A stretch of 64,000 bases of DNA. Origin: Opitutus sp. ER46 (GTDB lineage Bacteria > Verrucomicrobiota > Verrucomicrobiia > Opitutales > Opitutaceae). Where the stretch lies: contig NZ_QAYX01000025.1 in assembly GCF_003054705.1 (NCBI RefSeq), positions 310,001 to 374,000 on the forward strand, given 5' to 3'. The position numbers and the translations under genes were made by a program. Below are positions 9,615 through 29,951 of this stretch, piece by piece; position 1 is the first letter of the stretch, and every line of letters begins with the position of its first letter. Under the pieces are notes generated by a model that ran no database searches, had not been told where the DNA came from, and was given only the letters and a program-made list of their open reading frames with translations.

Positions 9615-9663
9615 GCGAAAGGGAGGTGACGCGACGACGGAATGCGGCACGTGCTGCCGGTGT

Positions 9664-9690
9664 TTATCGGCGTTTTCGGGCGGCGCTTGA
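9664..9690 (-). promoter_or_regulatory. Sigma28-type promoter candidate for the HDOD/kinase operon
   Basis: On the minus strand the -10 box GCCGATAA (9671-9664) matches the flagellar sigma28 consensus 8/8. A -35 of TCAA (9690-9687) lies 15 bases upstream, matching 3/4. The predicted start is near 9657, about 43 bases before the ATG. Confidence 0.5.
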
Positions 9691-9847
9691 GGGAAACTGC
9701 TCAAGCGCGGGGCGATCGGGCCGAAACAAAACCAACCCAGGCTTTCGCGCCCGAAATCGTCCGGTATTGTCTGGCGAGCCCGCCGGCATTTGCCCCGTCG
9801 CAGCCGGCTGGGGCGGCCGTCCTGATGACGGTCGCTACGCCATTTAC

Positions 9848-9874
9848 TTAAATTACGCGCCCCGCAGCCGATAA
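9848..9874 (+). promoter_or_regulatory. Sigma28-type promoter candidate before HDOD gene 9883
   Basis: GCCGATAA at 9867-9874 is a perfect sigma28 -10 box. TTAA (9848-9851, 15-base spacer) or TAAA (9849-9852, 14-base spacer) can serve as -35. The predicted transcript start, about 9881, is only two or so bases before the ATG. Confidence 0.55.
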
Positions 9875-9882
9875 TCTATCTG

Positions 9883-10728: not shown

Positions 10729-10883
10729 CGCCAACGCCATCGACGTGAATCAGGCATTGTACGCCGTCTCCGCGGGCAGATTTTTCTCCGGCATCACGGC
10801 TGGATCGTGCCGTGTTTCGGCAGAGATATTTTCCGCTACCGAACTCGGAATGGCTTACGGACTTACGTCGGGGGGCAGGGCGA

Positions 10884-10899
10884 TGGCGCGGGAATTGCG
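10884..10899 (+). promoter_or_regulatory. Sigma54-type promoter candidate before HDOD gene 10961
   Basis: TGGCGC-N5-TTGCG, with GG (10885-10886) and GC (10897-10898) separated by ten bases as in -24/-12 promoters. The predicted start is near 10910, about 51 bases before the ATG. Confidence 0.45.
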
Positions 10900-10960
10900 A
10901 ACCACGACTTGCAGCGTGCGCCCGCCTGATCATCCCAGCGCCCGCCGCTCCTGACCGCCC

Positions 10961-11987: not shown

Positions 11988-12032
11988 CAGCTGTGAGTCA
12001 CGCTGGCGTGACGGTTGCATAGTGTTCGGCGT

Positions 12033-14396
12033 ATGTCGCCCGCCGTCCACTTCGCGCTCGCTGAAAAGCGTTCGGCGCAAGCTGATCCAGACCTGATGAC
12101 CAGCGCGACTGCGCTGCGCACCGCCGTCCAGGAGTTGGGAACTGCCCCGCAGCTCGAAGTCGTGCTTGCATTGCGCGGGGTGCGGGAGGCGGTCGCCGCG
12201 GAGTTCGCCAAACTTGATCGGCGCGACGTGAATTCGCCGGCGATCCCGATCGTGCTGGAAGCGATCCACGGCTTGGCCGCGTGTGGCGCCCTCGATCTGC
12301 CGCTGCGCGCGAAGGACGAGCGTCAGCTGGCGCATTGGCAACCCCTCGGCTGGCCGGGGCTGGTTGCCTCCATGCTGGTGAGCGCCGCGTGGCGCTGGGA
12401 TGCTGCGCCGGTGTTCTCGCATGTTCCGGACTGGCTCTGGGGCGCGTACGCAGAGTGGCTGTTCGCCGCGCCGAACACGCTGGCGTCGGATCGGGAATGC
12501 GCGCTCTACGCGAGCCATCTGAGCCGGCACGCCGACGAACTGGCGCGCTGGGTGCAACGGCACCTTGGCGCGCCCGCGGTGCGCGCGGCAGTCGAGGCGT
12601 TCGCGCGCCAGGCTCCGCTGCATCCCTTGCGGTTCGCGCGGTCGCACGTGCTGCTGCCCGCCGAGTTGCAGGGCAAGATTCTCGCCCGGTTGCACGGCAG
12701 CTTCATTGGGCCGTTTGAACCGTGCGTCCGCCCGCGGGCCGGGCGTCGGTTGCGCGTCGGCTTTGTGGCGCGACAATGGGAGGCGAACGCGGACACCACG
12801 GCGGCGCTGGCCCAGTTCGAGCACCTGCCGGGCGATCGGTTCGAGCGTCGCCTTTTTGCGCTGCAGGAGGCGACGACGGCGTTCGGCTGGCGTTGCCGCG
12901 AATCGGCCGACGTGTTTCGCGTCCTGCCGGCCGATTGTGCCGGCCAGGCGGAGATGCTGCGCGACGCCGGGCTCGACGTCGCCGTGTTCGTGGGGGACAC
13001 CACGCTGGCGGATAGTTTCAGCCGGCTCGCGAGCATCCGGGTTGCCCCCCTGCAGGCGGTGGAGAATCCGGCGGGGATCACGAGCGGCTTGCCGGAGTCC
13101 GACCTATGCCTTGTCCCGGCCGAACTGGCGCCCCCACGGACGCCGTCGCGCCATTCGGAGCGGCTTGGGGCGCTGCCGACGACGGCTTTCGCGTTGCGTC
13201 GCGGCGGAGACGCCGAGCGGGTCTGCTCCCGCTCCGACCTGGGCTTCCCGGAGCGGACGGTGCTGCTGGTGGCGGTGCTGGGCACGACCCATGGCACGCT
13301 GGAGACGCTGGTGAATTTCGGGCGCATTCTCGCGCAGGTCCCGGAAGCGGCCCTCGTGCTGCAGGTGGTGCCGGACAACGAACTCACCCCGGTCGGATTC
13401 GAACGCTTCTGTACGATCGTCTGCGCCACCCTCGATGAACTCCACGTGGCCAACGATCGGGTGAGCGTGCTGGCGCCGCGGGAAGCGCAGCACGAGGAAA
13501 CGCGTGGGATCGTGCGGCTGGCCGACCTCTTCCTGACGACATCGGGCAGCGCGGTCTGGGCCGCGGAAGCGCTGGCGGCCGGCGTCCCGGTGGTCTCGGC
13601 CGATCCCGTGGTGTCGGATTGGCTCAAGGAGGCGAGGCTCGGCGAGCTGACGGCCCACGATGGCCCGGCCTTCGTCGAGCTGGCGGCGAGTCTCGCGGCC
13701 GATCCCGGCTGGCGGGAGAGCGTTGGCCGGCAACTGCAACGCGCGTTGCACGTCGGGCTCGCATGCCACGACACCCTGGCGGCCTCCGATGGATTTGCCG
13801 GCGTGCTGGAGACGGCGTTCGACCAGCTTGAGGCCCTCGGGCGCAGTCGTTTTCGCCGACAGCCCGATGCGGTGCGGGCGGGAGCGGCGGAGGATATCGC
13901 GAGCGCGGTGACGGCGGCGCAGGCGGTGCTCGAGAATGGCGGACTGCAGGGAGCGGCCGAGGCCGCGATGCGCGCGGTGATGATCCGGCCGCGGGATCCG
14001 AAGCTGCGCGCGCTTTGCGGCCGCGCCTTGCTGGCCGAGGGAGATGCGAGCCGGGGCGTGGAATACCTCCTCGCCGCGGTGCAGCAGCGGCGGCACGATG
14101 CGAATCTCTGGATGACGCTGGCGAACGGGCTGCAGGAGGCGGACCGGGTGGTGGAGGCCCTGCATGCGCTGCATGCCTCCTTGCGGCTTGATCCCGGCCG
14201 GCCCGACGCATGGAGCGCGCTGGTGGAACTGGCGACGAAGCTGGGCGAGAAGGATCTCGCACGCGAGGCATGTGGCGCCCTGGCCGAGACGGCCCCCGAC
14301 CATCCCCAACTTGCCGCCCTGTGCCAATGCCTGGGCCGTGGGCGAGAACCGGTAAACTGCGGCAGTGACGTCGGCGCCAACCGCCTTGAGGCTTGA
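12033..14396 (+). CDS. OGT-like (GT41-type) glycosyltransferase with C-terminal TPRs, divergent
   Basis: 787 residues. The N-terminal 200 residues are helical. A GT-B-like fold follows at about 235-600 (RRLRVGFVARQWEA, ITSGLPESDLCLVP, ADLFLTTSGSAVWAAEALAAGVPVVSAD), then TPR-like repeats to the end (GAAEAAMRAVMIRPRDPKLRALCG, VVEALHALHASLRLDP). It is collinear with the protein at 16413-18764, including the helical N-terminus. The GT41 motif that reads LDTFPYNGTTTTCEALW in the neighbour at 14403 is here LFLTTSGSAVWAAEAL, and the SPDLRTHS histidine is replaced, so catalysis is doubtful. ATG 12033 is chosen over TTG 12015. A role in flagellin glycosylation is inferred from the neighbourhood. Confidence 0.78.
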   Translation: MSPAVHFALAEKRSAQADPDLMTSATALRTAVQELGTAPQLEVVLALRGVREAVAAEFAKLDRRDVNSPAIPIVLEAIHGLAACGALDLPLRAKDERQLAHWQPLGWPGLVASMLVSAAWRWDAAPVFSHVPDWLWGAYAEWLFAAPNTLASDRECALYASHLSRHADELARWVQRHLGAPAVRAAVEAFARQAPLHPLRFARSHVLLPAELQGKILARLHGSFIGPFEPCVRPRAGRRLRVGFVARQWEANADTTAALAQFEHLPGDRFERRLFALQEATTAFGWRCRESADVFRVLPADCAGQAEMLRDAGLDVAVFVGDTTLADSFSRLASIRVAPLQAVENPAGITSGLPESDLCLVPAELAPPRTPSRHSERLGALPTTAFALRRGGDAERVCSRSDLGFPERTVLLVAVLGTTHGTLETLVNFGRILAQVPEAALVLQVVPDNELTPVGFERFCTIVCATLDELHVANDRVSVLAPREAQHEETRGIVRLADLFLTTSGSAVWAAEALAAGVPVVSADPVVSDWLKEARLGELTAHDGPAFVELAASLAADPGWRESVGRQLQRALHVGLACHDTLAASDGFAGVLETAFDQLEALGRSRFRRQPDAVRAGAAEDIASAVTAAQAVLENGGLQGAAEAAMRAVMIRPRDPKLRALCGRALLAEGDASRGVEYLLAAVQQRRHDANLWMTLANGLQEADRVVEALHALHASLRLDPGRPDAWSALVELATKLGEKDLAREACGALAETAPDHPQLAALCQCLGRGREPVNCGSDVGANRLEA

Positions 14397-14402
14397 GCCG
14401 AC

Positions 14403-16286
14403 ATGGCAGCAAATCCGCAGCTCACGCACCGGCTGAACGAAGCCATCGCGCACCACAAGGCAGGCCGCCTGGAGCGGGCCGAGTCGATCTACCGGCAGGT
14501 GGCCGCGCAGGCGCCCGGCGCGGCCTTGGTTTACGACCTGTGGGGGCAGCTCGCGGAGCAGCAGGGACGCAGTGAAGACGCCATGCGCCTCTATCAGCAG
14601 GCATTCCGCCTCGACGGGCGTTCGGCGGGGGCGGCGACGCGCATCGCCGCCGTGTACATCGCGCAGGGACGTCTGCCGGATGCGGAGAAGATCCTCCGCC
14701 GTTTGCTCCAGGCTGCGCCGGACAGCGCCGACGGCTGGAACGTGCTTGGGTTCGCGCTGAAGTTGCAGGGTCGCTTTCCCGACGCGATTGCGTGTCACCA
14801 GAAAGCGGTGACGCTGAACCCGAAGTTCGTCGAAGGCTGGACGCACTTCGGCCTGACCTGCGGATTGATGGGCCGGAACCACGAGGCGCTCGTGCGCTTT
14901 GATCGCGCGCTCGCCCTGCGCCCCGACTATGCGCCGGCGCGCTACGGCCGGGCGCAGTCGCTGCACAAGACGTACCGGATGGAAGCGGCCATCGCGGAGT
15001 ACGACGCATACCTCAAAGTGGAACCCCGGAACGCGGAGGCGTACAGCTATCGCCTGTTCGCGCTGCAGAACCTGGAAGGCATCACCCGGCAGCAGCTGTT
15101 CGAGGAACACCGGCGCTACGGCCGGCTGGTGGGCACGGGACCGCGGTCGCTTCCGGGCTATGATGTTTCTCCGGACCGCCGGTTGCGGCTCGCGATTCTC
15201 TCGCCGGACCTGCGCACGCACTCCTGCGCGTACTTTCTCGAGCCGCTGCTGCAGCAGCTCGATCCGGCGCAGTTCGAGCTGTACCTGTACCACGACCATT
15301 TTTCCGAGGACGACATGTCGGCGCGGCTGAAGAAGCACGCGACGGTGTGGCGCAATTTCATGGGGCAGCCGCATGCGGCGGTGGAGAAGGTGATCCGGGC
15401 CGACCGCCCCGACGTGCTGGTCGATCTCGCGGGGCACATCGGCAACATGATCCGGCTGCCGATCTTCGCGAAACGCCTGGCGCCGGTGCAGATCACCTAT
15501 CTGGGCTATCCCGATTCGACCGGCGTGCCGGCGATGGACTACAGGTTCACCGATCCGGTCGCGGACCCGGAAGGGGAGGCGGATGCGTTTGCGACGGAGA
15601 AACTCGTGCGGTTCGCGCCGACGGCGTGGACGTACCAGCCGCCGGTTGAGGCCGGGCCCGTGGCACCGTTGCCGATGACCGTGGGCGCCCCAGTGACCTT
15701 TGGGTGTTTCAACAGTCCGACGAAATTCACCAGTGGGCTGTTCCGCGCCTGGGCGCGGATCCTGGAGCGCGTGCCCGGTTCGCGGCTCCTCTTGAAGGGG
15801 CGCGACCTGGAGGAACCGCAGGTGAAGGAGCACATGAACGCGTGGATGACCGAGTGCGGTCTGCCGCTCGACCGGATTGAACTCCTGCCGCGCACGGCAG
15901 GGGCCGCGGAGCATTTGGCGCTCTACAGCCGCATGGACATTGCGCTGGACACGTTCCCCTACAACGGAACGACGACGACCTGTGAAGCGCTGTGGATGGG
16001 GCGGCCGGTGGTGGCGGTGCAGGGTTCGCGCCACGCGGCGCGGGTGAGCGCCTCGCTGTTGAGCGCCGTGGGACACCCGGATTGGGTGGCGCCCGATGTG
16101 GAAGGGTATGTCGACCTGGCGGTCCGTTTGGCGGCGCAGCCGGCGGAAGCCGTCGCGGCGTCTGCGGGGCTGCGCGCTGACCTGCAGCGCTCGCCGTTGC
16201 TTGACCACGTGGGGCAGGGGAAGCGCTTCGCCGCCGCCCTCCGTGCCTGTTGGATCGAGCGGGGGAAAAGTCAGCGTGCTTCGTAG
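14403..16286 (+). CDS. TPR-GT41 protein, O-GlcNAc-transferase-like (SPINDLY type)
   Basis: 627 residues. N-terminal TPRs (about 1-220: LERAESIYRQVAAQAP, PDAIACHQKAVTLNPKFVEGW) are followed by a full GT41 domain (about 255-620). Landmarks are LRLAILSPDLRTHSCAYFLE (His273), APVQITYLGYPDSTG, TFGCFNSPTKFT, and LDTFPYNGTTTTCEALWMG near the end. This is the arrangement of bacterial OGT/SPINDLY-like enzymes that move a sugar from a nucleotide sugar onto Ser/Thr of proteins; the TPRs bind the acceptor. It starts six bases after the previous gene. Of the three related genes in a row this one keeps the canonical motifs. Flagellin is the likely acceptor, judged from context. Confidence 0.9.
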   Translation: MAANPQLTHRLNEAIAHHKAGRLERAESIYRQVAAQAPGAALVYDLWGQLAEQQGRSEDAMRLYQQAFRLDGRSAGAATRIAAVYIAQGRLPDAEKILRRLLQAAPDSADGWNVLGFALKLQGRFPDAIACHQKAVTLNPKFVEGWTHFGLTCGLMGRNHEALVRFDRALALRPDYAPARYGRAQSLHKTYRMEAAIAEYDAYLKVEPRNAEAYSYRLFALQNLEGITRQQLFEEHRRYGRLVGTGPRSLPGYDVSPDRRLRLAILSPDLRTHSCAYFLEPLLQQLDPAQFELYLYHDHFSEDDMSARLKKHATVWRNFMGQPHAAVEKVIRADRPDVLVDLAGHIGNMIRLPIFAKRLAPVQITYLGYPDSTGVPAMDYRFTDPVADPEGEADAFATEKLVRFAPTAWTYQPPVEAGPVAPLPMTVGAPVTFGCFNSPTKFTSGLFRAWARILERVPGSRLLLKGRDLEEPQVKEHMNAWMTECGLPLDRIELLPRTAGAAEHLALYSRMDIALDTFPYNGTTTTCEALWMGRPVVAVQGSRHAARVSASLLSAVGHPDWVAPDVEGYVDLAVRLAAQPAEAVAASAGLRADLQRSPLLDHVGQGKRFAAALRACWIERGKSQRAS

Positions 16287-16412
16287 GCAGTTTTTTCCGC
16301 CATGGGGCCCTTACCTTAGGGCGTGTCGGGGAAAAGAGTCAAAAATATCTGGTAATAAACGTATTGCAATGTTTGTATCCCGATAGGCCCGAGACCTGCA
16401 AACTGGCATCTC

Positions 16413-18764
16413 ATGGCCACCCCTGTGTCTCTCGTTTCTGAGCACCCAACCCAAGCGGACGACGCGTCCTCGCCGCTGAATCTCGTCAAGACAGCGCAGG
16501 ACGCGTTGGACTGCTACGAGTTGGATCCAGGCTCAGCGGAGAAACGCGAGGTGGTGCAGAGCGCCACGCGAGCGGTAGCCGCACGGGCGGCCGCACTCGC
16601 CAAGCGTGAGAACGCGCATCCGCTCGTGGCGGCGACGCTGCCGTTGATTGCGAGCCTCAACCGCAGTGGGCTGCACGATTACGCGCTGTCCGATGCAGAC
16701 CGGGCGATGGTCAGTGACGGCCGGAAGGCCTCTTGGCCGGCGACGCTTGCGATGATGACTCTGGGCTCCGCCTGGCAGTGGGGAGAGGTGCCGGGGATTG
16801 AGGCGACACCGCAATGGATGTGGGCCGAATACACGGCGTGGCTGTTTGCTGCGCCCCGAGGCTTTACGAAGGTCGGCGATGCCAACCGCTATGCCGGTTT
16901 CGTGGTGAGGCATCTCGAAGATCTGGCCCGGTTGGTGGAGCGGAATCTTGGATCGGCCGCGGTGCGCGCGGCCGGCACTGCCTACCTGAAGAGCGCCTCC
17001 GGCATCCCGCTGTACTTCTCGGAGGGTTGCCTGCGACGGCACGCGGAGCTGCGCGGGAAGATTCTGAAGCGGCTGCTCGGCCGTGAAGTCACGCCGTTTC
17101 AGCCCCTGGCCTTCAGCCGGGATGGCCGACGGCTGCGCGTGGGTTTCCTCAACCGCCATTTCGATTCGCAGACCGAGACGTACACCACGCTACCAACGTT
17201 CGAGCAGCTCGATTCCGAGCGCTTCGAAGTGATCTTGTTCGCGCTGCGCGAGGCCGACACTCCGCTCGCGACCTACTGCAAGAGCAAGGTGCAGGAGTAC
17301 CGGGTCCTGCCGGGTGATCTCGAGGGTCAGTTGTCGGTGCTGCGCGACGCGAATCTCGACGTGTTGGTGTTTGGCGCCAACGTCACGGCGTCGGTGCATG
17401 AGGTCACGCAGTTGGCGCTCTATCGGATCGCGCCGCTCCAAGTCGCGAACAACTCGTCCTGCATCACGACCGGCTTCCCAGAGATCGACCTCTATGTGTC
17501 CGGCAGCCTCACGGAAGTTGCCGATGCTGCGGAGCAGTTCTCGGAACGGCTGGGCCTGCTGCCCGGCCCGGCGCACGCCTTCAACTATTCGGCGGACAAG
17601 GAAGAGCCTCGGGCGACGTGGACGCGGGCAACCCTCGGCGTGCCGGACGACGTGGTGCTGTTCGCGACCGCGGCCAACTACTTCAAGATCATCCCGGAGA
17701 TGCAGCACGCCTGGGCGCGCTTGCTCGCGGCGGTGCCGAACTCCCGCCTGCTGGTGCACCCGTTCAACCCGAACTGGTCGTCCACGTATCCGATCCAGCG
17801 GTTCTGTGCCGAGTTCGACCGCGTGCTGGCCGAGCACGGCGTCGCGACCGACCGCCTCATGATCTCGACGGAGAAGTTCCCGTCGCGGTCGGAGGTGGGC
17901 CAGTTGTTGCGGATCGCTGACGTGTACCTGGATACCTACCCCTTCGGCGGCGCTCACTCGCTCGCCGACCCGCTCGAGGCGGGGATTCCGGTTGTTGCTT
18001 GGGAAGGAACCACGTTCCGCTCGCGCATGGGCGGATCGCTGCTGCGATCGCTGGATCTCCCGGAGCTTATCGTGACCAACGAGGCTGACTATCTCCGCCT
18101 GGCCGGGGAACTTGCGACCGACGCCGGGCGCCGGACGGCGCTCAGCGGGCGCATCCGCGAGAAGATGGAGGCCTCGCCCATCTTCCTCGATACGCTCGCG
18201 GCCAGTGATGCCTTCGGCGCCTTGATCACCGCGGCCTTCGACGAGTTGCTCGCCACGTCGCCGGAAGGCTTCCGCAAGGAGAAGAGCATCATTTCGGTGT
18301 CGGTTGAATCCGACGTCGCGGCGGCTACCGCATCGGCGGCCCACCTTTTGGAGGTCGGCCTGGGCAACGAAGCTGAAGACCAAGTGCGGCGCTTGCTCGG
18401 AGCACATCCGGCGAACCCGGAACTCCGCCGCCTGATGGGGCGGATCCTCACGAACTCGAATCGTTATGCTCGCGCGGCCGAGTACCTGCTCGAGGCCGTT
18501 CAGAATGCCACGCCCTCGGCTGCCATGTGGCAGGAGCTGGCGCGCGCGCTTGAGGCGAGCGGGAATATCGACGGCGCGCTCACGGCGCTGCAGACCGCGA
18601 TCAAGATCGATCCGAAGAATGCGGAAGGTTGGTTCTATCTCGGCGACATCGCGCACCGCTGCGGGCACGCCGAAATGCTAACGGATATCGTGAAAATCCT
18701 GGAGCAACTCGCGCCGGACGATCCGCGACTGCCGGCCCTGCGCGTCTACGACCCCGTCGCGTAA
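16413..18764 (+). CDS. OGT-like (GT41-type) glycosyltransferase with C-terminal TPRs
   Basis: 783 residues, collinear with the protein at 12033: helical N-terminus (1-210), GT-B region (about 235-610) and C-terminal TPRs (about 630-780; GNIDGALTALQTAIKIDPKNAEGWFYLG). Landmarks are RRLRVGFLNRHFDSQTETY, ITTGFPEIDLYVSG and ADVYLDTYPFGGAHSLADPL. The LDTYPFGGAHS motif resembles the nucleotide-sugar-binding motif of GT41, so it may be active, but the SPDLRTHS histidine region reads NRHFDSQTE. TPRs lie at the C-terminus, opposite to the gene at 14403. The 126-base gap upstream has a GCCCT/AGGGC hairpin but no promoter I can defend. Confidence 0.8.
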   Translation: MATPVSLVSEHPTQADDASSPLNLVKTAQDALDCYELDPGSAEKREVVQSATRAVAARAAALAKRENAHPLVAATLPLIASLNRSGLHDYALSDADRAMVSDGRKASWPATLAMMTLGSAWQWGEVPGIEATPQWMWAEYTAWLFAAPRGFTKVGDANRYAGFVVRHLEDLARLVERNLGSAAVRAAGTAYLKSASGIPLYFSEGCLRRHAELRGKILKRLLGREVTPFQPLAFSRDGRRLRVGFLNRHFDSQTETYTTLPTFEQLDSERFEVILFALREADTPLATYCKSKVQEYRVLPGDLEGQLSVLRDANLDVLVFGANVTASVHEVTQLALYRIAPLQVANNSSCITTGFPEIDLYVSGSLTEVADAAEQFSERLGLLPGPAHAFNYSADKEEPRATWTRATLGVPDDVVLFATAANYFKIIPEMQHAWARLLAAVPNSRLLVHPFNPNWSSTYPIQRFCAEFDRVLAEHGVATDRLMISTEKFPSRSEVGQLLRIADVYLDTYPFGGAHSLADPLEAGIPVVAWEGTTFRSRMGGSLLRSLDLPELIVTNEADYLRLAGELATDAGRRTALSGRIREKMEASPIFLDTLAASDAFGALITAAFDELLATSPEGFRKEKSIISVSVESDVAAATASAAHLLEVGLGNEAEDQVRRLLGAHPANPELRRLMGRILTNSNRYARAAEYLLEAVQNATPSAAMWQELARALEASGNIDGALTALQTAIKIDPKNAEGWFYLGDIAHRCGHAEMLTDIVKILEQLAPDDPRLPALRVYDPVA

Positions 18765-19527: not shown

Positions 19528-22179
19528 TCACCGCGGCGTAGCGGCAACCGGCCCGCGTCGTCCTTGTGTCTCGGCGCGGGCGATGCGCGTCAGGAGCGCG
19601 GTCGCCGCCGCGTCATTGGGGCTCGTGCTGAGGATGAGCCGTTGGAGCGTGTCGCGGGCGGCCGCGTATTGACCCAAGGTGAGTGAGAGTTCCGCGATGC
19701 GCAGCGCGAGCTGGACGCGAAACAGTTCGTTATAGGTGGCTTGGCGCTTCATTGCCCGCAGGTATCGCTGCATCGCCGCCGGGAATCGCTGCTGGGTCTG
19801 AAGCGCGATCCCCAACAGCAGCGAAAGCGCGCCATCGCATTCGTCGGCGCCAGCAAGTTGCGGGGTGACTTGGGCCATCAACGGCGGAAGTTGGGCTCCG
19901 ACTGTTGCGATGAGTGCAGCGGTGGAACGCCTATCCTGAAGGCGCCGCTCGCGGAATGAGTCGTTGAGAACGAGAATCGCGCGGAGGAGATCTTCGGACG
20001 CCTTGGTGTGATGCTGGAGAAAGCTGCGGAGACGAGTGGCGGTGCTGATGGGGTCTCCGGGGGCGGCGGGCTGCTTTCCGGCGAGGACGAGTAGTTCCTC
20101 GAGGGCGGCGCCCATGACCTCGCCCGTCTTTGACCATGAGAATCGCTGTGTATTCTCCTGTCCGGAGGCGATGAGGCGGCGCCGGGCATCAGGGGCCTGC
20201 ACCGCAACCAGCGCGGCTTTCATCGCAGCGACGTCGCTTTCGCCGACAAAGATCGCGGCTTCGCCGGCAACTTCTGGAATCGATGAATTGCGGCACGTGA
20301 TAACCGGACAGCCCGAGCGTTGCGCCTCCAGAATAGGAAGTCCGAAACCTTCGTACTGTGAGGGGTAGACGAGTGCGATGGCTCCGGACAGGGCGGTCGA
20401 CAACTCCTGATCATCGAGGCTCAGGCTGTGGACTTCGGCGCCGGCGACAAACGGGCGAAAGTACGATTCCAGCTCGCGGCCCGTACACACGACCGCGTAT
20501 TTGGTCCGGTCTTCGAGCAACTGAAACGCCCGAAAGAACAGCATGGCGTTCTTGTAGGTGGTGCGGCTGCCCGTGAGCATGAAGTACGGCCTCTGGATAC
20601 CGTGCTTCTTGCGGAACTGATCGATTTCGGAGCCAGTTCGCAGCCGGAACTCGTCGGCGACCGCATTGCGGGTCAGGTAGCTGGGCCGGTTGGCGTGTTG
20701 TGGATAAAGGAGATTGAAGTCACGCCGCGTGGATTCGGAGACGAAGAAGTGGGCGAATGCGTGATCGATCGCTTTTAGCTTTGCCTGCCACTGCACGTCG
20801 TTCAGGTCGAGGCCCCGCACCTCGGGAATCATGTCATGGAGCATGAGCGCGGATGGCGTCGTTTCGGGCCAGGTCAGATAGGTCGAGATAAACAGCGCGG
20901 CATTCTCCTCGTCACAGATCTGCTGCAAGTGCAGCGGATCGTCTGCGTAGGTGTTGAAATCAAATTGCCGCGCGGGACGCGTGCGCAGGCCGGGGATACG
21001 GGGTGCCGTGTTGTCGCGATCGAGCAGGAGAATGCGATCGGCCAGGGAAGACTTTGCGAGCTCGGCCAAAAGACACTGCCAGACCCGGGCGATCCCAAAA
21101 GGGCGGGACCGATGAAGCTGGAACATGACGCCATCGACGACGATAGGGCGCTTGACGTTGTGGGACGCTGCCCGGCGCCTGGCTTGCGCGGTGGTCTGGA
21201 TTGATGGTGTACACCAGCCGAGAATCTCACGAAGTCGATGGGCGAGCGTCATTCCGCCGAGAACGAAATCGCGACCGCTCGCCGCCATCGCGGCCGATTT
21301 GCCGGGGTCGCGCAGCAGCCGTTGTACGCCGTCGGCTAATTCCGCCGCGTCGCTATAATAGAGCAGATGTTTGCCGGATTCGAACAGGGCATCCTGCTCC
21401 GGCCGACCGGTCCGGCAGGAGACAACCGCACACCCGCAGGCCATGGCCTCGAAGACTCGCGTGGAGTGAACAATCGACAGCGACGGGAACGCGACGGCGA
21501 TCTGGTGCGCGTTGTAATCCTCAACAAATCGGTCGACCCCGGGCTGCGCGTGGTCGAACGGGAGTAGATCGAGCAGCCGAAGGTTGGAAAGATGTTCGAT
21601 GAGAGTTCGCCGTTCTGAGTAGGTCGCTTGAGAGTTGTACGGCGTGGTGTTCCCTCGGAAGAAGGGGCGCGGCTTGCGCTGATTGAACGGCACTCGATCC
21701 GAGAAGACGCCTTCGTCGACGCCATAGGGCTGAATGAAGACAGGTTTCGTTGTTCTTGTTCGCAGCCAGACGGCGTCCACCGGATCCGGGCAGACGATCA
21801 CGTCGGCACACTCGACTGCCGACAGCGCGGCATTCTTCATTCCGTCGTTGCCGAAGAGTCGGCAGTTGTTGTCCAGCGACTCGTGGATGTAGAGGACCTT
21901 CGTGGTTGTCGCGGCCGCCCAACGTTCCTTCCAGCGCGACGACGTGTGCAACGCCTGCGAATGCCAATCGAAGCCGAGCAAGATCATGACGTCACTGCTC
22001 GGGGCGGCGAGGTATGCGTACAGCCCGTCGTCGTCGGCTGTGTCTGAGTCGCCCCAGTTGGCGCGCGGCTCAAAAACGCGGTTGAGGCAGCCGAGCCGTT
22101 GTGCGGTTGCAGTCCAACCGTCACGAATGCACCAGGCGTGCTTTCCGGTGGCTTGATAGACGATGTCGACGGTGGGCAT
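19528..22179 (-). CDS. Double glycosyltransferase (CgeB-like GT plus GT4) with C-terminal TPRs
   Basis: 883 residues. The first GT-B unit (about 1-335) resembles CgeB-type transferases (STRVFEAMACGCAVVSCRTG). The second (about 350-720) is GT4-like: SYLTRNAVADEF, PYFMLTGSRTTYKNAML and YPSQYEGFGLPILEAQRSG, the nucleotide-sugar motif. Helical repeats (about 790-870; PAAMQRYLRAMKRQATYNELF) end the protein. Two sugar-transfer sites in one chain suggest sequential addition. The ATG at 22179 is preferred to 22272 because residues in between are unlike a GT start, and because a sigma54-like promoter at 22197-22212 would exclude the longer form. It is divergent from the radical SAM fusion gene. Confidence 0.88.
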   Translation of the reverse strand: MPTVDIVYQATGKHAWCIRDGWTATAQRLGCLNRVFEPRANWGDSDTADDDGLYAYLAAPSSDVMILLGFDWHSQALHTSSRWKERWAAATTTKVLYIHESLDNNCRLFGNDGMKNAALSAVECADVIVCPDPVDAVWLRTRTTKPVFIQPYGVDEGVFSDRVPFNQRKPRPFFRGNTTPYNSQATYSERRTLIEHLSNLRLLDLLPFDHAQPGVDRFVEDYNAHQIAVAFPSLSIVHSTRVFEAMACGCAVVSCRTGRPEQDALFESGKHLLYYSDAAELADGVQRLLRDPGKSAAMAASGRDFVLGGMTLAHRLREILGWCTPSIQTTAQARRRAASHNVKRPIVVDGVMFQLHRSRPFGIARVWQCLLAELAKSSLADRILLLDRDNTAPRIPGLRTRPARQFDFNTYADDPLHLQQICDEENAALFISTYLTWPETTPSALMLHDMIPEVRGLDLNDVQWQAKLKAIDHAFAHFFVSESTRRDFNLLYPQHANRPSYLTRNAVADEFRLRTGSEIDQFRKKHGIQRPYFMLTGSRTTYKNAMLFFRAFQLLEDRTKYAVVCTGRELESYFRPFVAGAEVHSLSLDDQELSTALSGAIALVYPSQYEGFGLPILEAQRSGCPVITCRNSSIPEVAGEAAIFVGESDVAAMKAALVAVQAPDARRRLIASGQENTQRFSWSKTGEVMGAALEELLVLAGKQPAAPGDPISTATRLRSFLQHHTKASEDLLRAILVLNDSFRERRLQDRRSTAALIATVGAQLPPLMAQVTPQLAGADECDGALSLLLGIALQTQQRFPAAMQRYLRAMKRQATYNELFRVQLALRIAELSLTLGQYAAARDTLQRLILSTSPNDAAATALLTRIARAETQGRRGPVAATPR

Positions 22180-22196
22180 GTGGGAGGTTCCACGAT

Positions 22197-22212
22197 TGCA
22201 CACGCCACGCCA
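22197..22212 (-). promoter_or_regulatory. Sigma54-type promoter candidate for the double glycosyltransferase
   Basis: Minus strand TGGCGT-N5-GTGCA, with GG and GC ten bases apart (22211-22210 and 22199-22198). The predicted start is near 22186, seven bases before the ATG at 22179. Confidence 0.5.
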
Positions 22213-22406
22213 GGTTTGCCGTACGCTTTGCAAGCAGCGGCTGGACTGAGGTTTGTTCCTCAGTTCGCTCATCGCCGATGCTCAGCTCGCGCTGCGCAGT
22301 TACCCCCGGCAATTATTGCCGAGGATCGTGCCTGCGATCCACTCAGGCAAGAGGCTCCCTACGTAAACTCCTGCATGAAAGTCGGAAGCGCGCGGATGAA
22401 CTCGAT

Positions 22407-22477: not shown

Positions 22478-25400
22478 ATGACCAACCATGGAGAGTGTGC
22501 GACGTCACCATCGCAGACTGACCGGCCCGTGCTGCCGCAGGTCATTAATCTGCAGGCGATCGACGTGTGCAATAGCCGCTGCGTGATGTGTGAAGTGTGG
22601 AAATCGGGTCGTCGGGAGGTGCTGGGGTTGTCTGAGCTGCATGGTTTTCTCGCCCAGCCGTATTTCGCCGAGGTCGTGCATGTAGGGGTCACCGGTGGCG
22701 AGCCGACGCTCCGCAAGGATCTCGTCCAGTTGTATCACATGCTCCCGGGCGCTCTGCCCCGGATGCGTGGCGCCTCGTTTATCACCCACGGCCTGCAAAC
22801 CAAACGGGCGGTCGAGGTATATGGTTCTGTCCATCGCGACTACGCGGCGCGGGGGCTGACGCTCGACGGCATGGTCTCGATTGATGGAGTCGGAGCGCTC
22901 CACGACGCGGTGCGAGGGCGCCAAGGCGCGTTCATCGCGGCGACTGAGACGCTCATGGCGCTTAGGGCGGCAGCGGTGCCGACCATAGCGGCGTGCACGA
23001 TCGTTCGTCGCAACGTGTACGGGCTGCACGAACTCCTCGACTGGGCGAAGGAGCACCAGATCTACGTTCGGTTCCGTGTGGGGGAGTTCATCAACCGGCT
23101 GTACAACGAATCTTGTCGCGAGGAGATTCGGAACTTCGACGACGCTCAGTTGAGGCACTTGGTGTCCTTCTTTCATCTTTTGCTTGGCACCTACGAAACG
23201 GCCGCGGAGGTCCAGAAGACGTATCGTTCGATTCTGGCCCTGCTGACCGGCGATGAACGTCTGGTTGGGTGTCCTTATCGTCGCGGCAACGCAATCAACG
23301 TGGACTGTTTGGGAAGTGTTGCCGCGTGCGCGCCCAAAGACAGGCCGGTGCGCCTTCCCGCCTCCGTAGAAGACGCCCACGCGCTTCTGGAGGCGAGGCG
23401 AGCGGACATCGGGCGTCGCTTCTGTTCCGGGTGCATCCATGATTACCATGACGATTGGCTGCCTGAGGTGGCAAATCGACTGGCGGAGGACCGGCGCCGT
23501 GCGGAAGCCTTGTATGCCGCGCCTGACGCGTCGCTCACGGCGCCCGAGGCCTTGGCAAGTGACGTGGACTTTTCGGCCATGCGGCAGGTCGTGTTGGTTG
23601 GCTGGTACGGCACGGAAACTGCCGGCGACATCGCCATCCTGCGTGGCATCTTGAGCGAGTATTTGGCGCTCAATGCGGATCTCCGCTTTCACCTGCTGAG
23701 CCTGCACCCGTACTACACGCGGGCTAACATCGCCGCGTGGCCCCTGGAGTTGCAGAACCGAATCACGGTGAGCGACTACGCCAGTGCGGCCGCGGCCGCG
23801 GCGGTCTCGGATTGTGACGCGGTGGTCATGGCCGGCGGACCGCTGATGGATATTCCCGAGACAGGTCTCGTGCTTCGGCTGTTCAAGCACTTTGCCGATC
23901 AGGGGAAACCGCGCGTGATTGAAGGCTGTGGGGTCGGCCCCCTCAACCAGGCTGATTGTCGCTGGAACGTTTGCCGACTCGCGCGCCTGGCGAGTCGGAT
24001 CAGCGTTCGCGATGGCGCTTCGCGCGACCTGCTTCGTGCTCTCGGGATTACGAAGCACATCGAAGTCAGGCGTGATCCGGCGTCCGCCTTTATTCGCGCC
24101 CTCGGGGTGCAGCACCGGGGGCAGGGCAGCGGCATCATCCGTTGCTTTCTGCGGGAACTAACCGCCGAGTATCCGCAGGAGCTTGGTTCGGAGGCCGTGC
24201 GACAGAACCTCGTGCAGCTGCTTCGAAACCTGCTCGACTGGTATCCCAACCACCGGGTTGAGCTCTGGGCCATGCACTATTTTTCGGTCGGGAATGACGA
24301 CCGGTTGTTTGCACGGGAACTTGCGCGGGCCGTGGGCTCGCCTCGCCTCGTTGTCGACTGGCAACCCCGCACTCCTGAGGAAATCGCCGGGGCCATGGCC
24401 GAAGCCGAGTTCTGCGTCTGCATGCGCTTTCATTCGTGTGTGTTCGCGGCGGACGTCGGCGTTCCCTTTGTCGCCATTGACTACACGGCCGGGGGGAAAA
24501 TTCGCGCGTTTCTCGAAGAGTCAGGACAAGCGCACCGGCTGACGTCGCCCGCCGAACTGGGAACGCTGACGCAACTGGGGTTGGCGGCAAAAATTGGCTC
24601 CGCCGTGCCTCGGCCGGCGCCGCGAGACCGGACCGCGTCGGGCGACGTGGTTGTGCTGCATGTGCTCGAGTGCCTTGGTGGCGGTGGCGCGGCCCGGGCC
24701 GCAATCGCCATGGCGACGGAATTGGGCCATCTCGGCTCCTTTGAGCACCGCATCGTGTCTTTGCGTCCGGCGGAACGTGACGGCCGCCGCCTCGCTGCGG
24801 CCGCTGCATTCGAGGTGCTCGACGTTCCCGGAACGACCGAGCTGCTTCACGCCCTGGCTGCAGCGGACATCGTGCTCGTGCACTGGTGGAATTCGCCCGA
24901 AATTGCCCAGCTGTTCTCCCGTGAGTTGCCGCCCATGCGACTCGCGCTTTGGCTGCATGTGGGCGGCTACCATGCTCCTCATGTCATCTCGCCGGCGCTG
25001 CTGGAATATGCCGACCTGACGGTTGCTTGCAGTCCGCATACGTACGCGCATCCGGCCTTTTCGACCGTCGACGCAAGCCGGAAGGCAATGGTGTTGGCCG
25101 GGGCCGATTTCAGTCGGTTGAGCGGTTTTGCGCGCCGCGCGCACACGGGGTTCCGAGTGGGATATATCGGGACGGTGGATCCGGTGAAAATGCACCCGGA
25201 TTATGTGGCGCTGAGTTGCGGCGTTCGCGTCGAAGACGCGCGATTCGTGGTCTGCGGGCACGGTGACACGGGGTGGCTGGAGCGGGCGGCGGAGCAGGCG
25301 GGGCAAAGGGCGCGTTTTGAGTTCCGTGGACCAGTTGAGGATATCCGCTCGGTGCTGGAGGAACTTGATGTCTATGGATATCCGCTCGCGCCGGATACTT

Positions 25401-26494
25401 ACGCTGCGGCGGAGTTGAATCTGCAGGAGGCGATGTTCGCTGGGCTTCCGGTGGTCGCATTCCCCTATGGCGGGATTGGAAGGCTGATCCGGAATGGGGA
25501 GACCGGTGTCTTGGTGACGTCGCCGGAAGAGTACGCGCGGGCCATCGAGCGGCTCCATGCCGACCCGGCGGAACGGGAACGGCTGGGGCGGAATGCCGCT
25601 GCGTTCGCACGCGAAAACTGGGGCGCGAAGAACGCGGCGCGGGGCTTTGGGGAGCAGATCAGCCGCCTTCTGAAGGGGCCCAAGACAATGCGTCCGAACT
25701 GCAGTGTCCTTGGCGTCCCCGCGGGAATCACGCTGGGGCGGGATGCAGCGATCAACCCCGGCGCCAGGACATTTGTCGCCATGTTGGGTGAGGCTGGTAC
25801 CGCCTACTCGATCAGCATGAACGCGGAGGATGTAACGATGCTGCTGTCGGCGGAAGAAGAGATTGGGAGAATGCCCCGCATCATGCAGCAATCCTGCGGG
25901 GGGTATTTCAGGCATGTGTTTCCTCGGGATGCCTTTCTCAATCTCTGGTCCGGATTGGTGGCGCTTCGGATGGGAAACGGCGCCGCTGCTGGGGCAGCAT
26001 TCGGCGCAGCGCAGCGCAATGGTCTGCAGCACTGGCGCGTGCTGTGGTACGCCGCGCGCGCGGCCGAGAGCTGTAATCAGTGGCGTGAAGCCAAAAAGGC
26101 GCTCGATGAGGTGCTGCGAGTCGTCCCCGAATTTGGACCCGCACTTGAAATGAAACGCCGGTTGGAGGAGCGCGGCGTTACCGATCCCCGGGCGGCGGCG
26201 TCTGTCGCCATGCAATATGTCCAACAATCGCAGCAGTGTGTGCGGGAAGGTAAGCTCGCCGAGGCCCGTGACCTTCTCGCGCGAGCGGTCGAGATCCTGC
26301 CGGCACCGCAGTTGACGATCCTGGAGCTCATCGCGGATCTCGACTGTCGTCGTGGCGACATGCCAGCGGCGGAGCGAGTCCTCGACCTAATTATGCGAGC
26401 CGAGCCGAATCGGACTACCCCGCGTTTGGTTTCGATACGTGCCACAGTGAAACAGTGGTCTGCCGCGCGGCCGTCGACGACCGCCCGAAAATGA
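22478..26494 (+). CDS. Fusion protein: radical SAM, pyruvyltransferase-like, GT4-like and TPR domains
   Basis: 1338 residues in four parts. Radical SAM (about 15-360): CNSRCVMC (31-38) binds the SAM [4Fe-4S] cluster, GVTGGEPTL follows, and later Cys residues (CPYRRG, CSGCIHDYH) could hold an extra cluster as in SPASM proteins. A polysaccharide-pyruvyltransferase-like part (about 385-710): VLVGWYGTETAGDIAILRG and CMRFHSCVFAADVGVPFVAID. A GT4-like part (about 735-1065): HVLECLGGGGAARAAIAMA and LQEAMFAGLPVVAFPYGG. Helical repeats follow (about 1130-1330). ATG 22478 is chosen because the upstream 24 residues are not conserved-looking. It is probably involved in building or attaching a modified sugar to flagellin; the substrate is unknown. 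Confidence 0.9.
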   Translation: MTNHGECATSPSQTDRPVLPQVINLQAIDVCNSRCVMCEVWKSGRREVLGLSELHGFLAQPYFAEVVHVGVTGGEPTLRKDLVQLYHMLPGALPRMRGASFITHGLQTKRAVEVYGSVHRDYAARGLTLDGMVSIDGVGALHDAVRGRQGAFIAATETLMALRAAAVPTIAACTIVRRNVYGLHELLDWAKEHQIYVRFRVGEFINRLYNESCREEIRNFDDAQLRHLVSFFHLLLGTYETAAEVQKTYRSILALLTGDERLVGCPYRRGNAINVDCLGSVAACAPKDRPVRLPASVEDAHALLEARRADIGRRFCSGCIHDYHDDWLPEVANRLAEDRRRAEALYAAPDASLTAPEALASDVDFSAMRQVVLVGWYGTETAGDIAILRGILSEYLALNADLRFHLLSLHPYYTRANIAAWPLELQNRITVSDYASAAAAAAVSDCDAVVMAGGPLMDIPETGLVLRLFKHFADQGKPRVIEGCGVGPLNQADCRWNVCRLARLASRISVRDGASRDLLRALGITKHIEVRRDPASAFIRALGVQHRGQGSGIIRCFLRELTAEYPQELGSEAVRQNLVQLLRNLLDWYPNHRVELWAMHYFSVGNDDRLFARELARAVGSPRLVVDWQPRTPEEIAGAMAEAEFCVCMRFHSCVFAADVGVPFVAIDYTAGGKIRAFLEESGQAHRLTSPAELGTLTQLGLAAKIGSAVPRPAPRDRTASGDVVVLHVLECLGGGGAARAAIAMATELGHLGSFEHRIVSLRPAERDGRRLAAAAAFEVLDVPGTTELLHALAAADIVLVHWWNSPEIAQLFSRELPPMRLALWLHVGGYHAPHVISPALLEYADLTVACSPHTYAHPAFSTVDASRKAMVLAGADFSRLSGFARRAHTGFRVGYIGTVDPVKMHPDYVALSCGVRVEDARFVVCGHGDTGWLERAAEQAGQRARFEFRGPVEDIRSVLEELDVYGYPLAPDTYAAAELNLQEAMFAGLPVVAFPYGGIGRLIRNGETGVLVTSPEEYARAIERLHADPAERERLGRNAAAFARENWGAKNAARGFGEQISRLLKGPKTMRPNCSVLGVPAGITLGRDAAINPGARTFVAMLGEAGTAYSISMNAEDVTMLLSAEEEIGRMPRIMQQSCGGYFRHVFPRDAFLNLWSGLVALRMGNGAAAGAAFGAAQRNGLQHWRVLWYAARAAESCNQWREAKKALDEVLRVVPEFGPALEMKRRLEERGVTDPRAAASVAMQYVQQSQQCVREGKLAEARDLLARAVEILPAPQLTILELIADLDCRRGDMPAAERVLDLIMRAEPNRTTPRLVSIRATVKQWSAARPSTTARK

Positions 26495-26597
26495 ACCCAA
26501 CGGACTCTGGCTCGGCGGCAGGGCGCTTGGGCGTCCCTCGCGACGGCGGCGTGCCAACCGCGTTGGCTCGTGGCCGCTCAAGCTGGCATTCAGCGTG

Positions 26598-27677
26598 ATG
26601 ACCATGTCCACCTCAACGCCGCTTCGCCGCATTCGGGTCTGCTATTTTGACCAGTGGACGGATGCGCTGGAGCCGGCGGGTGATTTCTTGGCGCGCGCGG
26701 TGGGGATGGATGTTCGGCGACGTTTGGCAAACCCCGGGGATGGGGAGCTGCTTCGGAAGGCGCGGCTCGACTGCGACTGGTACACCGAAAACGCGCGGTG
26801 CTTTGCCGCCCTGTCGCATCCTGAACTCGAGTTCCTGCCCGCCTATGTCGGCGGGGCCGCCGGCCTGCTCGAGTTTGCCAAGCTGCCCCGCCAGCCCGGC
26901 GAGGAGCGGTGGTTGATCACGATGGGTCACCAGCCGCAGTTGCTCGGCGCGATGGCTGGAAGGATCTTCGGTCTGCTCTCCAAGGTGGGTGTGCGGCATC
27001 TGCTTTATGCCTTCGACGAGGCGAGCCGGTACATGCCGGGTTTCGGCGACGTGGCGCCGTATCTCGACGTCCTGATCCATGACGAGGCCCCGCTGGATTT
27101 CCGCGGCGCCGCGTTGTTGCGCGCGGGATGCCGACGCATCCACCGGAGTTGGGTGGCCAATGTGCTGCCGTTTGCGGCTCCGTTTCAGGAGGAGCCGGAG
27201 AAGAAGGTGTTGTTCCTGGGATCCAAGCTCGGGCTGACCGACAATCGGCTGAGGCAGTTCGAGTTTCTGTCGGAGCATCTGAAGGACCGGTTCGTACCGA
27301 GCCACGATCACTCCGTGAGCGTGGCGGACCGCCTGAGGCTTAATCGCTACAAGGTGGGCCTGGCGCCGGAGGGACGGAAGTTTGGCACGCCGGCAATGAG
27401 CCGGACGCACACGGACCGGCCGTTCTGGCTCGGATGCCTGGGCGCGGTGCCGGTGTCGGAAAACTCTGCCGCCGGTGACCGACTCAATGAGTTGGCCGAC
27501 GCAGGGCTGATCGTTCGCTACCCACACCAGGACCTCAAGGGACTGCTCCGGGCCTGCGAGCAGGCCTTGGAGGTGAGCGAGGCTGACCGACGCCGGATCT
27601 ACCTGCACTTTAACGAGCACGAGACGGTGGGTGCGGTCGTGGCACAGGCGATTGCGGGTTTTCTCGGCGTACGTTGA
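26598..27677 (+). CDS. Glycosyltransferase-like protein (GT-B fold, putative)
   Basis: 359 residues. Features that suggest a GT-B transferase are an early RRIRVCYFDQWTD strand, a central LFLGSKLGLTDNRLRQFEFL segment, and the C-terminal pattern YKVGLAPEGRKF, then LGAVPVSENSAAGDRLNELADAGLIVRYP, as in transferases that list suspect nodes followed by a degrading loop. I do not recognise a specific family. Possible starts are GTG 26595, ATG 26598 and ATG 26604. It is the last gene of the glycosyltransferase island, 103 bases after the fusion gene, and is convergent with the flagellin genes. Confidence 0.6.
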   Translation: MTMSTSTPLRRIRVCYFDQWTDALEPAGDFLARAVGMDVRRRLANPGDGELLRKARLDCDWYTENARCFAALSHPELEFLPAYVGGAAGLLEFAKLPRQPGEERWLITMGHQPQLLGAMAGRIFGLLSKVGVRHLLYAFDEASRYMPGFGDVAPYLDVLIHDEAPLDFRGAALLRAGCRRIHRSWVANVLPFAAPFQEEPEKKVLFLGSKLGLTDNRLRQFEFLSEHLKDRFVPSHDHSVSVADRLRLNRYKVGLAPEGRKFGTPAMSRTHTDRPFWLGCLGAVPVSENSAAGDRLNELADAGLIVRYPHQDLKGLLRACEQALEVSEADRRRIYLHFNEHETVGAVVAQAIAGFLGVR

Positions 27678-27937: not shown

Positions 27938-28768
27938 TTAGCGGATGAGGCTAAGCGCGGACTGGGCGCTCTGGTTGGCCTGCGAGAGCATCGCGGTGCC
28001 GGACTGGACGAGGATGTTCCAGCGTGCGAGCTGGGTACTTTCCGCGGCCACGTCGACGTCGACGATGCGACTGTTGGCGGACTCCAGGTTGGCCTTGTTG
28101 GTCGTCAGGACCTCGGCGGCGAAACCCAGGCGGCTCTGCTCAGCGCCGTTCTTGGCGCGGAACGTCGCAACGTTCTGGATGCCCGTCTTGATGCTGTCGA
28201 TCGAGCTGATGGACGACAGCGAGCCGCCGCCAGCGGCATCGGAGAAGGCGCCGACGCCATCCGTGCTGCTGGCTAGGGCCTTCGCGGTGATGGCGACCGT
28301 CTGGACGCCGTCCTCGGAGACCTTGACCGACTCGACCACTCCGGTACCTGCCGAACCGAACAGCGAGACGCCGTTGAACTTCTCCTGCGTGAGAGAATCG
28401 AGCTCCTTCTGCAGCTGCTGATACTCCGCATCGTAGTTGGCCTTGTCCGAGCTGTTCTTCGTCGGGTCCTGGTACATCGTCCAGAGTTCCGAGATGCGGT
28501 CCATGACCTTGGAGGAGGTCTGGAGCACGCCATCCTGAGTCTGCAGGTAGGACGTGACGTTGCCGATGTTGCTGTTCGCCGCGGCGGAACGCTTGGCGGC
28601 CGCAGACAACTTCATCGACACCGCCAAGCCACCGGCATCATCCGACGGATTGACGATCTTCGAGCCGCTCGACAACCGGTTAAGGCTGCGCTGCAAGCTG
28701 GCACTCGAGGAGGCGAGGTTGTTCGAGGCAATCGTCGCCGCTGTGTTGGTATTAATCACGACTGACAT
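27938..28768 (-). CDS. fliC: Flagellin (short form), copy 1
   Basis: 276 residues, a compact flagellin with the conserved D0/D1 ends and a small central part. The N-terminus MSVVINTNTAATIASNNL and LNRLSSGSKIVNPSDDAGGLAVS, and the C-terminus ARWNILVQSGTAMLSQANQSAQSALSLIR, are typical. The short middle (about 175-200) leaves few exposed Ser/Thr, which are the usual glycosylation sites. The start is set by AAGGA nine bases before the ATG, one of the few clear Shine-Dalgarno sequences here. It is 358 bases after the second flagellin, and its own promoter was not found. Confidence 0.95.
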   Translation of the reverse strand: MSVVINTNTAATIASNNLASSSASLQRSLNRLSSGSKIVNPSDDAGGLAVSMKLSAAAKRSAAANSNIGNVTSYLQTQDGVLQTSSKVMDRISELWTMYQDPTKNSSDKANYDAEYQQLQKELDSLTQEKFNGVSLFGSAGTGVVESVKVSEDGVQTVAITAKALASSTDGVGAFSDAAGGGSLSSISSIDSIKTGIQNVATFRAKNGAEQSRLGFAAEVLTTNKANLESANSRIVDVDVAAESTQLARWNILVQSGTAMLSQANQSAQSALSLIR

Positions 28769-29126
28769 GGTTCTATCCTTGATCTTAAAGCGACTATCCG
28801 TCGTCGCCACGGGCCCTGGGAATCAGCGCGGGCCCCGCTGTCTGGAGCGGAAGCTCCAGTTTTCCCGGCGCTGCAACCGCGCAGCGCCGAGGAAAAGGGG
28901 GAAAGGAGGGAAGAACCTCGTCGTGTTTGGACTTTCAAAGATCAGGGGCTGCGTCGGAAACCCGGTGGACCCCGTACGGCACCTCACGCCGGTGCGCGGC
29001 GGAGGATCGGAGCTGTCGCTGCTACTGGCCCTGGCCCCACCCCGAGACAGACAACCGTGATACGATCGGGGATGGGCGCCGCTCCGGCCGGCAATCACTC
29101 CGGGGGAGCGGCGGGGACGAGGGGGA
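28769..29126 (-). other. Flagellin intergenic region with two leader hairpins
   Basis: Gap of 358 bases between the two flagellins. It holds CTGGAGC-GGAA-GCTCCAG (28842-28859), CGGCGCTGC/GCAGCGCCG (28866-28889) and GCCGCTCC/GGAGCGGC (29078-29112) after the upstream flagellin. No U-run follows them on the minus strand. I found no sigma28 or sigma54 match for the downstream flagellin, so it may depend on read-through, with hairpins shaping stability or translation. Confidence 0.5.
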
Positions 29127-29951
29127 TTACTGGAGCAGCTTGAGCGCGGTCTGAGCGCTCTGGTTGGCCTGGCTGAGCATGGCGGTGCCGGACTGGACCA
29201 GGACGTTCCAGCGGGCGAGTTGGGTGGATTCCTCGGCGACGTCGACGTCGATAATCCGACTATTGGCGGCTTCGAGGTTGGCCTTGTTGGTCGTCAGCAC
29301 GTCGCCGGCAAAACCGAGGCGGCTCTGCTCGGCGCCGTTGTTGGCGCGCATGGTGGCGACGTTCTGGAGGGCCTGGGTGATCGCATCGACGGTGCCGATG
29401 CTCGAGAGCGAGCCGGCGCCGGCGGAGTCGGCGAGGGCGCCGAGACCGACCGTGGCATCGGTGCTGGAAAGGTTCTTCGCGGTGAGGGTGACCGTGCCCT
29501 TGCCGTCTTCGGAGACGGGCACGACGATCTCGGTGCTGCCGAAGAGGGCGGTGCCGTTGAACTTCTCGGTCGAGAGCGAGGCGAGCTGCTTCTGCAGCTG
29601 CACGAACTCGGCGTCGTAGTTCGACTTGTCGGTGCTGTTCTTCGTCGGGTCCTGATAGAGGGTCGACAACTCGCTCATGCGTTGGAGCACGTCGCCGGTG
29701 ACCTTGAGCACGCCGTCCTGCGTCTGGAGCATCGACACGGTGTTGCCGATGTTGATCGCGGCGGCGCCGGACCGCTTCGCGGCCGCGGACAGCTTCATGG
29801 ACACGGCGAGACCGCCGGCATCATCGGCCGGGGTAACGATCTTCGAGCCGCTTGAGAGCCGATTCAGGCTCTTCTGCAAACTGTCGTTTGACGCGGCGAG
29901 GTTGTTTGCAGCCGTCGTGGCCGCAAAGTTGGTGTTAATGACAACTGGCAT
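29127..29951 (-). CDS. fliC: Flagellin (short form), copy 2
   Basis: 274 residues, paralogous to the copy at 27938 along its whole length: MPVVINTNFAATTAANNLAA, NRLSSGSKIVTPADDAGGLA, and the C-terminal LARWNVLVQSGTAMLSQANQ. The differences are concentrated in the short middle. Leaders are also related (GATCAAGGA before both ATGs), indicating tandem duplication. A good sigma28-like promoter lies at 30054-30080, which would give a leader of about 95 bases. As the promoter-proximal copy it may be the main filament subunit. Confidence 0.95.
   Translation of the reverse strand: MPVVINTNFAATTAANNLAASNDSLQKSLNRLSSGSKIVTPADDAGGLAVSMKLSAAAKRSGAAAINIGNTVSMLQTQDGVLKVTGDVLQRMSELSTLYQDPTKNSTDKSNYDAEFVQLQKQLASLSTEKFNGTALFGSTEIVVPVSEDGKGTVTLTAKNLSSTDATVGLGALADSAGAGSLSSIGTVDAITQALQNVATMRANNGAEQSRLGFAGDVLTTNKANLEAANSRIIDVDVAEESTQLARWNVLVQSGTAMLSQANQSAQTALKLLQ

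Follow-up and report, generated by a model that had tools for sequence, protein, structure and literature searches.

In contig NZ_QAYX01000025.1 of Opitutus sp. ER46 (forward strand, positions 310,001 to 374,000; these 64,000 nucleotides are called the window here), a gene at 22478..26494 (+) encodes a protein of 1338 residues which joins four parts in one frame without an inner stop. These are, all on the plus strand, a radical S-adenosylmethionine (SAM) part (rSAM; residues ~18-330, 22529..23467), a polysaccharide pyruvyl transferase part (PPT; residues 370-690, 23585..24547), a family 4 glycosyltransferase part (GT4; residues 725-1070, 24650..25687), and tetratricopeptide repeat (TPR) helices (residues ~1150-1331, confident from ~1245 on; 25925..26470). 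Translation, Pfam, NCBIfam, and the GC content of the codon positions bear out the original prediction of a single protein with four parts. The fusion is real and no artefact; its domains are of known kinds, and it is their combination in one chain which is new.

Divided into 13 blocks of 100 codons (the last 38 residues lie outside the blocks), the frame has its GC minimum at the second codon position in every block, so no frame change is apparent; upstream of 22478, the frame remains open as far as a TTG at 22406. A frame error joining separate genes, the danger foreseen in the original prediction, is excluded at the rSAM-PPT and PPT-GT4 junctions by the same frame in a second species (locus L024, see below) together with codon-position composition, while for the GT4-TPR junction the support is the continuity of the frame and its composition. 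Family matches and conserved positions also ruled out chance motifs. Third-position GC is 0.72 against a median of 0.83 for 39 predicted genes, three of which are lower (an antisense frame at 13104-16208 was left out of this set, and the genes starting at 12015 and 14403 were added manually), and the codon-usage distance of 0.30 is ordinary; composition gives no clear sign for or against a foreign origin of the gene. Between 18700 and 30700, promoter-like sites numbered 0 (1.9 expected) and terminator-like sites 15 (10.6 expected).

The rSAM part carries CNSRCVMC (residues 31-38, 22568-22591; a CxxxCxxC motif) and GGEPT (residues 73-77, 22694-22708; a GGEP motif), and both motifs are invariant in all four aligned homologues, which share 24-61% identity with the window sequence. 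Among the NCBIfam radical SAM models that match, TIGR03961 is the best (E 2.8e-16), and all stay below their curated cut-offs; the homologues at loci L097 and L058 exceed the Pfam Radical_SAM cut-off with 60.1 and 54.7 bits; on the strength of these matches, and with both motifs in place, the assignment was accepted. Four further cysteines (C265, C284, C316, and C319; 23267..23440), also invariant in the four homologues, are taken as a putative auxiliary cluster site, as for twitch/SPASM proteins; of the four C-terminal rSAM fragments, that of genome G135 matches Pfam SPASM (26.9 bits, cut-off 21.5). BtrN, whose substrate is an aminocyclitol, has an auxiliary cluster with four cysteine ligands (PMC9012708). 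SPASM/twitch enzymes (such as BtrN and, by profile, SkfB, BlsE, and MoaA, the last matched at 2.6e-5) share CxxxCxxC, GGEP, and four C-terminal cysteines with the rSAM part, which, however, reaches no curated subfamily and is fused to sugar enzymes.

The PPT part was assigned by Pfam (PS_pyruv_trans, PF04230, residues 383-669; 83.9 bits, cut-off 25.3), by alignment, and by motifs, among them MRFH (24422-24433, +) and GGKI (24491-24502, +). Residues R650, H652, and K674, which belong to the predicted phosphoenolpyruvate (PEP) site, are invariant in the four homologues and align, in a weak match (E 0.35), to positions 284, 286, and 308 of the solved chain 5ax7, whose spacing is that of Pvg1p R337, H339, and K361 as given in PMC10435577; R511 as counterpart of Pvg1p R217 was placed by motif only. 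The ketal pyruvyltransferases CsaB and Pvg1p share PF04230 with the window protein but are described there as single-purpose enzymes (PMC10435577). The CsaB equivalog model of NCBIfam, TIGR03609, is not reached (95.7 versus 213.1 bits).

In the GT4 part it is the C-terminal half which is supported by Pfam and by phmmer against solved chains: Glyco_trans_1_4 matches residues 893-1029 with 77.6 bits (cut-off 27), and PF13692 and PF00534 both exceed their cut-offs. The N-terminal half (residues 724-901) gave no match in the Pfam scan and was assigned by order, a GGGG motif, and conservation with L024 only. Of EX7E, the GT4 motif, the first glutamate is replaced (Ala976) and the second is present (Glu984). 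For the TPR helices, Pfam TPR_19 matches residues 1256-1312 with 27.7 bits (cut-off 25), TPR_19 and TPR_14 are above cut-off in a scan of residues 1075-1338, and a model of residues 1035-1338 predicts helical repeats with a TPR-like fold by fold match; a model of residues 1-1080, built from two sequences, had a mean confidence score (pLDDT) of 36.8 and was not used. The domain search proposed with the original prediction has placed PS_pyruv_trans, Glyco_trans_1_4, and TPR_19 above their cut-offs and identified the rSAM part by NCBIfam and motifs, with Pfam Radical_SAM below its cut-off.

A scan of genome contigs with six exact peptides as query, which reaches close relatives only, returned four loci. 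One of them, L024 from a Verrucomicrobia bacterium metagenome-assembled genome (MAG), covers residues 1-706 with 59% identity, whereas matches at the remaining loci are confined to the rSAM part (24-32%). By blastp, L024 is 56% identical to the window protein over 795 positions, and it represents a second species with rSAM, PPT, and GT4 in one frame, at 56-60% identity. Its fused frame begins at 4761 and leaves the contig end inside GT4, the match ending at residue 789 and the remainder not being found in the MAG; hence the first two junctions are seen twice and the TPR junction once. The search for the same architecture in relatives has thus been answered for rSAM-PPT-GT4, whereas the four-part chain was seen in the source genome only. 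A flagellin gene, identified by family match, lies at 3532-4338 of L024, and the fused frame starts 422 bases after it. The frame at 2781-3239 is presumably fliW.

More distant relatives show the same three enzymes separate or half fused. In G135 (L058, minus strand) rSAM (12946-11843), PPT (11846-10710), and GT4 (10738-9473) are three genes, each overlapping the next; the gene before rSAM, without a Pfam match, presumably encodes a flippase, and the genes after GT4 read as polysaccharide genes, that is, as part of a polysaccharide locus. In G685 (L097) a fused rSAM-PPT protein of 746 residues (12902-15142) overlaps a separate GT4 gene (15108-16400) and is preceded by an export/nonulosonate locus with a PseF-like plus KdsC-like protein, NeuB, and a sulfotransferase; the former, at 9020-10222, combines a PseF-like cytidylyltransferase and a KdsC-like phosphatase in one protein and adjoins NeuB. 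In blastp comparisons with the window protein, G685 shows 35% identity over 697 positions, and G135 25% over 316 (rSAM) and 30% over 325 (PPT). That rSAM, PPT, and GT4 keep this order whether encoded by three genes, by a two-part fusion with a separate third gene, or by a single frame suggests that all three serve one product. The simplest reading of these sequences would be that the fusion grew stepwise from separate genes, splitting being the other direction.

Whole-genome searches, made in overlapping samples of 57, 387, 27, 14, 1, 196, 372, and 10 genomes, yielded partial matches to one part in 46 of 57 genomes (mostly GT4) and in 156 of 387 (mostly radical SAM, among the matches listed and with at most two candidates scored per genome); a further rSAM-PPT fusion or adjacent pair was not present among the matches listed. 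At E 1e-12 the PPT profile matches three of 387 genomes of the phylum, namely the source genome, G135, and G319; the PPT of the last is distant, and no rSAM gene is among the genes read over 15 kb. A viral or mobile origin was rejected: in scans of viral contigs, the PPT profile and the whole protein returned no relative and the rSAM profile one weak locus (L099), and one phage record and two plasmid records were partial matches below 30% identity. A congener contig in which a SPINDLY-type gene adjoins GT4 (L113) was dropped, as this is not a flagellin locus.

Near the gene, two flagellin genes lie at 27938..28810 (-; Pfam) and 29127..29951 (-; Flagellin_N match), and FliD and FliS are also encoded in the window (Pfam); two more flagellin genes of the source genome are found at 386139-388308 of contig C25, ~12 kb past the window end. 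The next gene, 100 bases downstream of the fusion (26595..27677, +), encodes a protein of 360 residues and of no known family, for which neither Pfam nor NCBIfam gave a match at E 1 and the compared loci contain no relative. On the other side, the divergent neighbor (19528..22272, -; Pfam) is a GT4-GT4 protein of 914 residues whose TPR end is weak; at 0.74, third-position GC is on the low side here too, as in the fusion gene. Further upstream, at 12015-18764 (+), three consecutive genes encode transferases with TPR parts: 14403..16286 (+; Pfam) has an N-terminal TPR and a C-terminal GT41 domain of SPINDLY type, 16413..18764 (+; Pfam) a GT41 match and a C-terminal TPR, and 12015..14396 (+; Pfam and blastp), a paralogue of the latter (34% identity), a C-terminal TPR but no GT41 match. 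An open frame of 1034 residues at 13104-16208 (-), antisense to two of the transferase genes, is probably an effect of high GC and was discounted because of the Pfam-supported genes on the opposite strand. Near sensor kinases, three HDOD-domain genes are clustered at 9883-11845 (+) and 8688-9704 (-).

The Flagellin_N profile matches at four places in the source genome and at three in G440 (control matches in 4 of 14), and in the same search not in G135, G685, or G319; both genomes carrying the long fusion have flagellins and carry it beside a flagellin gene, while the trio of G135 and G685 lies in polysaccharide loci of genomes where the search was negative. The original remark that no four-part protein of this sort was known next to flagellins needs qualifying, since L024 provides another example of at least the rSAM, PPT, and GT4 parts; the TPR part was seen once.

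It is possible, with a probability of about one half, that the protein is a multifunctional glycan-tailoring enzyme which arose from a stepwise-fused polysaccharide trio, acquired a TPR tail, and was probably recruited to flagellin glycosylation. The GT4 part would attach a sugar either to flagellin directly or to a glycan that flagellin carries; the PPT part would place a pyruvate ketal, made from PEP, on the transferred sugar; the rSAM part would modify that glycan at one carbon, the simplest case being an oxidation in which the auxiliary cluster accepts the electron; and the TPR part would hold the flagellin. Its regular association with PPT and GT4 makes a sugar the likelier candidate for the substrate class of the rSAM part. 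The original prediction of a single-chain device has gained in one respect: that the parts act on one glycan is better supported, owing to the overlapping rSAM, PPT, and GT4 genes of G135 and the two-fused-plus-one arrangement of G685; the radical, ketal, transfer, and docking steps, as well as substrate, product, reaction order, and the direction of fusion, are what we infer. The link to flagellin comes from position in two of two long-fusion genomes and from the TPR part, present in one genome only. The TPR-GT41 proteins encoded nearby also speak for the proposed role.

Flagellin binding by the TPR part is a guess from FlmG of Caulobacter, in which, according to PMC7591256, a TPR domain binds flagellins and another domain is the transferase. 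The FlmG class, cytoplasmic flagellin O-glycosyltransferases, is described there as likewise modular, with TPR and glycosyltransferase acting on flagellin; however, FlmG has its TPR at the N-terminus and requires pseudaminic acid, whereas the fusion protein has a C-terminal TPR, GT4, rSAM, and PPT, and its genome no NeuB match. The FlmG layout is present in the window, in 14403-16286, but not in the fusion protein. As in the window, SPINDLY GT41 genes are located near flagellin in the flagellin glycosylation islands of Enterobacteriaceae, where many are joined to methyltransferase domains (PMC4875605); words beginning with "radical" or "pyruv" are absent from its main text.

Several points weigh against the proposed flagellin glycan-tailoring enzyme. 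Pfam Radical_SAM reaches 23.2 bits at residues 28-119, below its cut-off of 29.5; Pfam SPASM has no match in the C-terminal fragments of the window protein, L024, and L097; and the best solved match of the rSAM profile is a peptide enzyme, the sactisynthase SkfB (E 9.8e-15). Resemblance among the GT4 parts of the trio is only distant (22% and 18%), which leaves room for a different role of this third partner. The TPR transferases of this kind described in PMC7591256 use a GT41-type and not a GT4 enzyme and have the TPR at the other end. Finally, nearness to flagellin was observed in two cases only, and the TPR tail in one.

Among the alternatives, the one which survives best, possible though rather unlikely, is that the protein tailors capsule or lipopolysaccharide, that its nearness to flagellin is incidental, and that the TPR docks another assembly protein. 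This would fit the trio within polysaccharide loci of G135 and G685, where flagellin was not found, but a flagellin gene adjoins the long fusion in both genomes which have it, TPR-bearing transferases are encoded on the neighboring stretches 12015-18764 and 19528-22272, and no flippase or polymerase is among the families found in the subset of window genes scanned. It is considerably less probable that the rSAM part acts on a peptide side chain, for example of flagellin, and only the other parts on sugar. The SkfB match, and several NCBIfam matches to peptide maturases, speak for this; yet the sugar-nucleoside enzyme BlsE is matched as well (4.1e-8), most such matches span the common core only, and the same rSAM is retained beside PPT and GT4 in the polysaccharide loci of G135 and G685, two genomes in which the flagellin search was negative. 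That one or more parts are inactive remnants retained for structure, as the low Radical_SAM score and Ala976 in the EX7E motif might suggest, is very improbable given that neither the rSAM cysteines and GGEPT nor the four cysteines of the putative auxiliary site nor the PEP-site residues vary among the four homologues, at 24-61% identity.

The glycan-tailoring enzyme may also bear on nonulosonic acids. NeuB (PF03102) has no match in the source genome (control matches in 9 of 14), so a pyruvate ketal could replace nonulosonic acid there. Pyruvylation confers a negative charge and, in function, seems to resemble sialylation (PMC4872226), which makes such a replacement on flagellin a testable idea. 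Against it stands G685, with trio, NeuB, and a PseF-like gene, trio and NeuB being in one locus; the trio is therefore no general replacement for nonulosonate. The full proposal, a one-chain flagellin glycan enzyme working without nonulosonic acid by sugar transfer, a PEP-derived acidic ketal, a radical change, and TPR-held flagellin, is rather improbable.

No flagellin is known to carry a pyruvylated or radical-SAM-modified sugar. None was found in the open-licence papers searched, nor, in titles and the starts of abstracts, an rSAM-PPT enzyme or an rSAM enzyme acting on flagellin; "radical SAM" and "polysaccharide pyruvyl transferase" occur together in none of the open-licence papers searched, and in passages of a review on pyruvylated glycoconjugates both occurrences of "flagell" are an algal name (PMC6801904). 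Should the proposed working hold, the known modifications of flagellin would come to include radical SAM chemistry and pyruvylation, and the pyruvate ketal would become testable as a substitute for sialic-acid-like sugars. Flagella aside, the recurring order rSAM-PPT-GT4 makes the radical reaction itself testable, because the partner enzymes point to the class of its substrate.

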